A DNA stretch of 64,000 bases from Bordetella petrii (GTDB lineage: Bacteria; Pseudomonadota; Gammaproteobacteria; Burkholderiales; Burkholderiaceae_B). The notes beneath the pieces were generated by a model. The model saw nothing but the letters and a program-made list of their open reading frames with translations. It searched no databases and was not told the origin of the DNA. This document shows, piece after piece, positions 931 to 22,740 of this stretch (within the stretch, counting starts at the first letter, position 1; every line of letters begins with the position of its first letter). A program made the translations under genes and the position numbers. The stretch lies in the NCBI RefSeq assembly GCF_017356245.1, contig NZ_JAFMZZ010000001.1, forward strand, positions 2,366,196 to 2,430,195, in the 5' to 3' direction.

Positions 931-1188
931 CCGAATGTCCCTGAACGCCGCGCAGGGCGGCGTTCAGGGACGGCCCCGCAAGATTTTCTTCTTCCAGACC
1001 AACGCCCCCACGAAGCAGAAGAACCCCGCCCGCCCCAGCCATGCAGCGGGACGGCACCATTGCGAGCCGGCGCGTGGTGTGCGGGGTGGCCGAGGCGCCT
1101 CGGGGCCGGGCCCGGGCGCGCGGGGCGCCCGGACGGCACCGTGAAGCCGAGGCCACCCCGCACACCACGCGCCGGCGGCACAAGAACC
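931..1188 (+). repeat. Two-hairpin element, copy A (conserved loops, variable stems)
   Basis: Hairpin 1 has 13-bp arms at 937-949 and 959-971 around the 9-nt loop GCGCAGGGC. A linker of about 95 nt follows, containing a T-rich tract and AAGAACCCCGC. Hairpin 2 has perfect 26-bp arms at 1066-1091 and 1151-1176 around a 59-nt, extremely GC-rich core (1092-1150) ending in ACGGCACCGTGAAGCC. Copies B (22017-22272) and C (22451-22708) share both loops, the spacing and the total length, but the stem sequences differ. The element fills the gap between the convergent AEC permease and fumC genes. I do not recognise it as a named repeat or RNA family, and the reading frames crossing it look incidental. 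Confidence 0.85.
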
Positions 1189-1224
1189 ACCCCCGCCGCC
1201 AAGCAAGAAAGAAAGGCGAACCAG

Positions 1225-21979: not shown

Positions 21980-22016
21980 AGGGTGCTTCAGACTGGGCGT
22001 ACGAGGATCAGACAGT

Positions 22017-22272
22017 GATTCTTCTGGCGTCGCGGCGGGTGGGGGTGAGCGCCTTGGCTTCACGGTGCCGTCCGGGCGCCCCGCGCGCCCGGGCCCGGCC
22101 CCGAGGCGCCGCGGCACTCACCCCCACCCACCGCGACTCGCGTCAAATGACGTTTGCCATGGTGCCGGGACGAGCGGGGTTCTTGCGTTCCTGGGCCGCA
22201 TCCGGGGAAAGAAAAAGATCTTGCAGGGCCGCTGTTCGGCGCCGCCCTGCGCGGCGCCGAGCAGCATTCGCT
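22017..22272 (-). repeat. Two-hairpin element, copy B
   Basis: Read on the minus strand, hairpin 1 has 13-bp arms (22253-22265 and 22231-22243) around the loop GCGCAGGGC (22244-22252). Hairpin 2 has 23-bp arms (22113-22135 and 22031-22053) around the 59-nt core (22054-22112). The core is identical to that of copy C and differs from copy A at two positions. Both mismatches in hairpin 2 are G-U wobbles on the minus-strand transcript. Hairpin 1 has a single A-C mismatch on that strand. The U-rich tract and AAGAACCCCGC of the linker are present. It follows the nitronate-monooxygenase-like gene. Confidence 0.85.
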
Positions 22273-22305
22273 CAAGGGCTGGCGGGCGCATCATTTCAGT
22301 GTTTC

Positions 22306-22397
22306 AGGTGTCAGGCTCCTGACAGGGTGCCTGACACCGCATGACTGAGATAGCTGTGGCTCACAACGGTGTCGGGCACCTGCGGAGCCCGACACCT
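22306..22397 (+). repeat. Paired GGTGTC/GACACC palindrome (REP-like), copy 4
   Basis: Two hairpins, AGGTGTCAGGC...GCCTGACACC and GGTGTCGGGC...GCCCGACACC, are separated by a 29-nt linker with AGCTGTGGCTCACAAC. The copy lies exactly between hairpin elements B and C, which point away from each other, repeating the adjacency seen at 805-1188. Confidence 0.75.
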
Positions 22398-22450
22398 GGG
22401 TACATCACCTGACCATTCCAGACAAAAAAAACGCCCTTCGCATGCCGCCA

Positions 22451-22708
22451 CCCGAACGGCTATTCCAGCCGCGCAGGGCGGCTGGAATAGCCGGCCCCGA
22501 ACGATTTTTTTCTTTTCCCCGGATGCGGCCCAAGCACGCAAGAACCCCGCGCGCCCCGGCAACGCCGGTATCCTGATTTACTGCGAGTCGCGGGGTGGTG
22601 GCGCGAGCGCCGCGGCGCCTCGGGGCCGGGCCCGGGCGCGCGGGGCGCCCGGACGGCACCGTGAAGCCAAGGCGCTCGCGCCACCGCCCCGCGGCGCCAG
22701 AAGAACCC
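22451..22708 (+). repeat. Two-hairpin element, copy C
   Basis: Hairpin 1 has perfect arms at 22457-22470 and 22480-22493 around GCGCAGGGC (22471-22479). Hairpin 2 has 23-bp arms at 22589-22611 and 22671-22693 around the 59-nt core (22612-22670), with a single U-G wobble on the plus-strand transcript. The T-rich linker tract (GATTTTTTTCTTTTCCCCGG) and AAGAACCCCGC are as in copy B. It precedes the 3' end of the minus-strand Bug gene at 22741, so B and C together fill a convergent gap. Confidence 0.85.
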
Positions 22709-22740
22709 GTAACCCCGCCGCCAGCACACCCCCCGACGCA

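Follow-up and report, generated by a model that had tools for sequence, protein, structure and literature searches.

A hairpin whose loop is kept while both sides of its stem change raises the question of what holds the two arms together: selection on a folded molecule or the way in which the DNA is copied. This question is posed by a two-hairpin element found in three copies (A, B, and C) in a stretch of 64,000 nucleotides of the Bordetella petrii genome (contig NZ_JAFMZZ010000001.1, positions 2,366,196 to 2,430,195), which is referred to here as the window. In a preliminary description of this DNA, the covarying stems were taken to imply selection on a folded RNA or single-stranded DNA, and a noncoding RNA, a mobile palindromic unit handled by a transposase-like enzyme, and a protein-binding module were put forward as possible identities.

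Architecture of the Element

Direct reading of the sequence confirmed the three copies at the positions and in the orientations first given. A 19-nt piece of the core, searched with up to three mismatches allowed, occurs three times in the window, each time exactly, against 0.06 occurrences expected. Read along the core-bearing strand, each arm begins with hairpin 1, continues through a pyrimidine tract into a C-rich linker, and ends with hairpin 2 followed by an A+C-rich tail (Table 1). The pyrimidine tract begins approx. 12 nt past hairpin 1, and the linkers of the window's own genome, approx. 90 nt long on average, contain AAGAACCCC. Copy A stands alone, with the end of its hairpin 2 directed at the 3' end of a fumarase C gene; copies B and C are arranged as a head-to-head pair, flanked by convergent genes that a domain search assigned to the NMO and TctC families. 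Separate short GGTGTC...GACACC palindromes adjoin the elements at 866-896, 22307-22338, and 22368-22396 of the window.

Table 1. Parts of copies A, B, and C, in window positions
Feature	Position	Strand	Remarks
Copy A hairpin 1	937..971	+	15 bp, loop GCAGG
Copy A linker	972..1065	+	pyrimidine tract, then C-rich with AAGAACCCC
Copy A hairpin 2	1066..1176	+	outer stem 26 bp, plus conserved core
Copy A tail	1177..1222	+	A+C-rich, reaches fumarase C stop
Copy B tail	21980..22028	-	reads toward NMO-family gene 3' end
Copy B hairpin 2	22029..22137	-	outer stem 25 bp
Copy B linker and pyrimidine tract	22138..22230	-	
Copy B hairpin 1	22231..22265	-	
B/C spacer	22266..22457	none	between hairpin-1 ends of the inverted pair
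Copy C hairpin 1	22458..22492	+	
Copy C pyrimidine tract and linker	22493..22586	+	
Copy C hairpin 2	22587..22695	+	outer stem 25 bp
Copy C tail	22696..22740	+	extends to TctC-family gene

Hairpin 2 folds stably on the core strand, with z values of -9.7 (A), -6.9 (B), and -6.9 (C). Its outer stem is perfect in copy A and contains two imperfect pairs in each of copies B and C, all four of them G-U on the core strand, as the earlier statement has it for every mismatch; the number given there, three, would omit the second pair from the base in copy C. The 59-nt core is, as described, the same in B and C, and copy A departs from it at two positions, which oppose each other within one internal loop (GC/AA to GA/GA). 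The core had been regarded as an enclosed loop; according to the folds, it is instead a continuation of the helix with internal loops, which are asymmetric and conserved, and its tip repeats the motif of hairpin 1.

Hairpin 1 comprises 15 pairs and a GCAGG loop, with one C-A mismatch in copy B, whose hairpin 1 rests on the alignment of own-genome copies, the single fold (z = 0.04) having covered a partial stretch. The loop had been called constant, which holds for the window copies but not for the family, in which it varies and the tip is also found inverted. In all 19 full copies of the own genome, the hairpin-1 tip reads GCGCDGGGC. Among 104 rows collected from Achromobacter and Bordetella genomosp. 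4, a CCGC-type tip was found in the hairpin 1 upstream of hairpin 2 in 74 and a GCDGG tip in 11; one row had both, 14 had neither, and four were too short. The sequence preceding hairpin 1 is variable (GAATG, GATCG, GTATG, GTAAG), and AAGAACC motifs recur outside the hairpins. Moreover, a longer form of the element exists, which has a branched arm where the short form has its hairpin-2 tip.

Distribution of the Family

The own genome yields 28 BLAST matches to a 60-nt stretch of the core; 19 were taken as full copies, and the other nine, being fragments or cut by N letters, were dropped before the covariation work. Eleven matches to the long form are also present. A covariance-model search, suggested in the preliminary description, revealed many more copies in related genomes when carried out with one model of the short form (R1) and one of the long form (R2). 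R1 matches nine of nine genomes of the window's genus; judged by match length, six of these contain the short form and three (G004, G006, and G007) the long form only. R2 matches all 12 genomes, from four genera, that had been preselected for R1 or R2 matches (18, 9, 10, 3, 79, 2, 11, 7, 4, 23, 17, and 6 matches); it scores short forms too, and the weak matches of G003 and G008 (best E values 2.7e-5 and 3.7e-4) are possibly short forms alone. The long form is present in the window's genus, three further genera, and many Achromobacter species. When representatives of named species were scanned with a sequence pattern, 98 stretches were returned, and the 80 listed comprise 74 from Achromobacter and six from B. 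genomosp. 4. In wider draws, R1 matched 10 of 200 genomes of the family, and R2 matched four of 399 genomes of the order, all within the same family, and one of 299 genomes of the phylum, the window's own; since just 8-18 candidates were scored per genome in these draws, absence outside the family is provisional.

In agreement with the earlier remark that no known family has this form, the window contains no Rfam match at the gathering threshold. A permissive Rfam search of 10 loci gave three matches (E 2.6-3.6), all far under the gathering scores and none credible. On contig C1 of the single-contig genome G001, all matches listed fall into two regions, 0.47-0.93 Mb and 3.84-4.95 Mb, with none between, and in the single-contig genome G013, they are spread out. 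Single N letters occur in or near the copies at five loci (L013, L021, L022, L024, and L026), as do several contig ends in G004. Assemblies therefore seem to break at the elements, and copy numbers in draft genomes may be underestimates.

Covariation and Proposed Concerted Rewriting of the Stems

The fold is kept as the stems change. All 19 full own-genome copies have distinct 5' arms, and mean identity is 63% in the stem arms vs. 95% in the core. In the own-genome alignment of hairpin 2 (17 of the 19 copies; copy A of the window, with its 26-bp stem, and L016 were omitted on grounds of register), 97.9% of 765 cells are paired and both sides have changed in 24 of 45 pairs; none of 500 shuffles reaches the observed values, and sliding the partners lowers pairing to 34-43%. 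For hairpin 1 (18 of 19 copies, L020 omitted), 98.5% of cells are paired, with two-sided changes in 11 of 15 pairs; four of 500 shuffles match the pair count, two the pair types, and none the remaining measures. The long form, in an alignment of 17 rows hand-picked among the fetched loci, shows 96.6% pairing and two-sided changes in 27 of 41 pairs, which no shuffle equals. In the set from Achromobacter and B. genomosp. 4 (104 matches, 96 of them distinct, from 80 loci, in an alignment fitted to the structure), the corresponding values are 95.5% and 28 of 41 pairs, again reached by no shuffle. The proposed covariation of the stems is thus borne out for both hairpins of the own genome, the long form, and the 96-row set.

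Close relatives suggest how these changes may arise. Orthologous sites with flanks of 88-96% identity were compared in 26 cases, which are mutually non-independent; with the arms aligned before counting, 106 two-sided changes were found vs. 36 one-sided changes with G-U, and a further 126 cells counted as pairs missing from one partner, partly via alternative folds. Loci L145 and L149 differ by one additional base that is present in both arms, which speaks against coding. Across seven inverted pairs from B. genomosp. 4, the hairpin-2 tip occurs in both orientations, with its length shifted by one base. The stems are also biased in the orientation of their pairs (5' base first): G-C outnumbers C-G by 735 to 301, and U-A outnumbers A-U by 145 to 58. 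The described footprints of replication template switching include changes on both sides of a stem with hardly any half-way states, insertions mirrored in the two arms, and inversion of the loop, and intrastrand switching is predicted to give an excess of G-C and U-A (PMC8794818); the asymmetry observed here is the one so predicted, while loop inversions are rare in the ribosomal RNA data of that study (PMC8794818). Template switching during DNA replication would copy one arm onto the other and thereby rewrite the stems in concert. Because two-sided changes exceed half-way states, as replication template switching yields, covariation of the stems alone cannot prove selection. The claim that covariation implies selection is accordingly upheld in part: signs of selection on one folded strand exist, but covariation by itself is no proof of it.

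Better evidence for selection is the excess of G-U over A-C in the outer stem, together with the conserved internal loops. On the core strand of own-genome hairpin 2, 23 G-U cells are found vs. two A-C cells (p = 2e-5, one mostly non-standard column omitted). In the outer 14 pairs of the 96-row set, which were selected after the table had been viewed, the counts are 24 vs. two (p = 1e-5), with 26 other mismatches. When all 41 pairs of this larger set are included, G-U and A-C number 97 vs. 75; in distinct rows, 67 of 70 A-C cells fall at three inner positions and 51 of 89 G-U cells at two, and at the inner positions the Bordetella-based pairing model may misfit Achromobacter. Hairpin 1 alone shows no strand asymmetry (G-U:A-C 3:2), and the asymmetry of the long-form set is weaker (16:6). 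The balance of wobble counts, a sign read from sequence, favors folding, either in RNA or in single-stranded DNA, of the strand running from hairpin 1 to hairpin 2. Alternatively, the G-U excess could result from strand-biased C-to-T mutation.

Placement at Gene Ends

The elements often occur as head-to-head pairs. Counted by units, a gene's 3' end lies opposite the hairpin-2 end in 86 of 105 cases (p = 2e-11 vs. one half): 41 of 49 among single elements and 45 of 56 among the ends of pairs. The count by rows is 74 of 94, excluding 10 of the 104 hairpin-2 ends that have no called neighbor, with a median distance of 89 nt and six ends beyond 300 nt. Of 77 units, a number that includes at least one pair twice (L006/L007), 48 lie between convergent genes, 25 between tandem genes, and four between divergent genes. 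The placement counts and those for the tail below use rough, heuristic gene calls from a simple script based on GC content by codon position.

The composition of the element is also directional. C exceeds G in the linkers of all 19 own copies and of 94 of 96 others (eight of 104 near locus ends were left out). On the antisense strand of the 45 nt that follow a stop codon, C exceeds G at 58 of 61 sites next to elements vs. 60 of 185 elsewhere, from which the A+C-rich tail seems to be part of the element.

Related species differ in the presence and form of the element at identical junctions. The fumarase junction contains it in five of nine genomes of the genus, single or paired, short or long, and once facing the other gene; the NMO junction contains it in three of the eight genomes with a close ortholog. 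As several genomes do without it at the same junctions, the element is dispensable there. At the fumarase junction of G008 (L285), a second hairpin 2 is without most of one arm and keeps the other end of the core; it is possibly a deletion remnant.

A Possible Barrier to Transcripts

The direction of hairpin 2 toward the stop codon, the composition of linker and tail on the same strand, and the stability of the hairpins together suggest a barrier to transcripts. In the account that best covers the whole, template switching would rewrite the stems of a dispersed, apparently non-coding palindromic element that is under selection for its folded strand and probably acts as a transcript barrier at gene 3' ends; this account is put forward tentatively, as a reading with somewhat less than even chances. 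Selection would hold the fold of the strand from hairpin 1 to hairpin 2, for which RNA is the most likely form. The folded RNA would be a 3' extension of the transcript of the opposing gene. The C-rich linker, the tail, and the two very stable hairpins would stop that transcript, perhaps with the help of Rho, and cap it before it enters, in antisense, the gene faced by hairpin 2. A single copy would guard one gene, and a pair would guard both. The involvement of Rho is a guess, as a C/G ratio of 1.8 or more is found in just 13 of 96 linkers. It counts against a guard that only 48 of the 77 units are located between convergent genes, that several genomes do without the element at the same junctions, and that the two intergenic stretches scanned showed no sigma-70-like promoter.

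An intrinsic terminator was also considered and rejected: in the window, no hairpin of the element scores as one, and no U run directly follows a hairpin. One terminator-like site was detected at 1209-1190, within copy A's tail, vs. 0.4 in shuffled sequences. The more specific proposal of a structured RNA with stems rewritten by template switching and an inner core of non-canonical internal loops held by selection on one strand, serving as a directional guard against antisense at the gene 3' end and copied up to dozens of times per genome, is regarded as rather unlikely.

Mobility and Other Explanations

The element might instead be mobile but non-autonomous, akin to a MITE or a giant BIME, and moved by an enzyme that recognizes the folded single strand; transposition would then be what preserves the structure, and gene 3' ends would be sites that are simply tolerated or targeted. 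Such spread is suggested by B. genomosp. 4: whole inverted pairs of approx. 770-925 bp are 89-97% identical between sites with unrelated flanks, their identity stops near the outer ends of hairpin 2, and the genome holds 79 R2 matches. Presence or absence at the same junctions points the same way. In view of the pairs in B. genomosp. 4, the mobile palindromic unit of the preliminary description is plausible, with a hypothetical enzyme. No target duplication is visible in the seven aligned B. genomosp. 4 units, and their near-identity could also result from gene conversion. None of the wide pairs checked contains a transposase gene of the element's own: the 2-kb pair of G004 holds no convincing gene, and the 1.7-kb inverted pair of the own genome (contig C1, copies at 85521 and 87278) has an IS110-family transposase gene in its spacer (L064, 1484-2539; Pfam DEDD_Tnp_IS110 and Transposase_20). 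Genes of the Y1 (RAYT) transposase family, searched genome-wide (PF01797, E 0.001), were not found in six of the 12 element-bearing genomes, including B. genomosp. 4, which has the most matches; where present and inspected, they lie among GGTGTC palindromes and are not flanked by this element, so that RAYT/Y1 was rejected as the mobilizing enzyme. Weak R2 matches near Y1 genes (L256 and L257) proved to be hairpins of that palindrome and not of this element. The GGTGTC...GACACC palindromes (also at L253-L258), which surround IS200-like Y1 genes in related genomes, resemble a REP family that has its own RAYT. No copy of the element was found on plasmids with three query regions, the six plasmid matches lying under flanking RidA-family genes, or on phages with one query region. 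On balance, a mobile element of this kind is possible but unlikely.

Two further explanations place the function elsewhere. Near-perfect Watson-Crick stems, a tip found in either orientation, and a multi-copy chromosomal spread would suit a site that acts as DNA, with palindromes extruded as cruciforms or bound as such by a protein in chromosome organization, replication, or supercoil control and no role for RNA; the wobble asymmetry of the outer stem of hairpin 2, the strand-specific composition of linker and tail, and the asymmetric conserved internal loops argue against it and make it improbable. The complex conserved fold and the recurring AAGAACC motifs could also belong to a multicopy trans-acting noncoding RNA with its own promoter. 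This explanation is the most improbable, for no sigma-70-like promoter was found in the two intergenic stretches scanned, little similarity is seen by eye upstream of hairpin 1 among the own copies, and the element is usually associated with gene ends.

If the transcript barrier at gene 3' ends is real, it would be a directional and portable insulator for gene ends and would account for the large hairpins found there in these genera. As many stems differ on both sides between close relatives, the crossing of mismatch valleys by RNA stems can be tested directly by strain-level sequencing. The family also serves as a warning that covariation alone may arise from a DNA-copying mechanism.

Comparison with Known Repeat Families

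Among the titles listed in a literature search, no publication describing this element was seen. REP sequences and BIMEs are 20-40 bp units with a GTAG/CGTC tag, often tied to RAYT genes, and are thought to be transcribed (PMC3733652). Like them, the element consists of intergenic palindromes that form inverted dimers and often lie by 3' ends between convergent genes (PMC3733652). Unlike the 20-40 bp REPs described there (PMC3733652), it has a hairpin 1 of 35 nt, a hairpin 2 of approx. 110-200 nt, and no constant tag; each arm carries two hairpins, all 19 full own copies differ in their stem arms, and no linked or flanked RAYT gene was found. The inverted dimers near gene 3' ends are therefore what it has in common with REP/BIME, while tag, size, and RAYT set it apart.

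The element resembles the TIR families of TIRtrons in its long, partly self-complementary inverted repeats dispersed in the genome (PMC3733652); TIRtron TIRs, as described, flank a tyrosine transposase (PMC3733652), and none was found flanked by the present element. It is also like the MITEs ERIC, NEMIS, and RUP, which have no known coding capacity, are dispersed and foldable, and lie near genes (PMC3733652). Its inverted pairs, apparently non-coding, correspond to the inverted terminal repeats of a MITE, and single copies exist as well. It differs from those MITEs in that no matching transposase ends or target duplication were seen, and in a conserved inner fold combined with strong stem turnover.

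Among repeats of Bordetella and its relatives, the Beta-proteobacterial repeat element (BRE) is comparable, and its first member lies within an expressed small RNA (PMC3110155). BRE is approx. 90 bp long, often tandem, and present in several beta-proteobacterial families (PMC3110155), whereas the arms considered here measure approx. 260-330 bp and occur singly or as inverted pairs; judged from the description in PMC3110155 and not by sequence, the element does not belong to BRE. The Bor repeats of 2006, likewise intergenic and structured, are at 26-30 bp REP-sized (PMC1590033) and in this respect unlike the present element. The Bor-1 and Bor-2 repeats of B. bronchiseptica are, like it, intergenic and structured (PMC2267715). 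Bor-2 is 167 nt long and has 17 members (PMC2267715), and by this description, the only basis of the comparison, the present family is possibly identical to Bor-2. Given its differences from REP/BIME and BRE, the element, with Bor-1 and Bor-2 judged by their description only (PMC2267715), is filed as a structured intergenic repeat outside REP/BIME and BRE.
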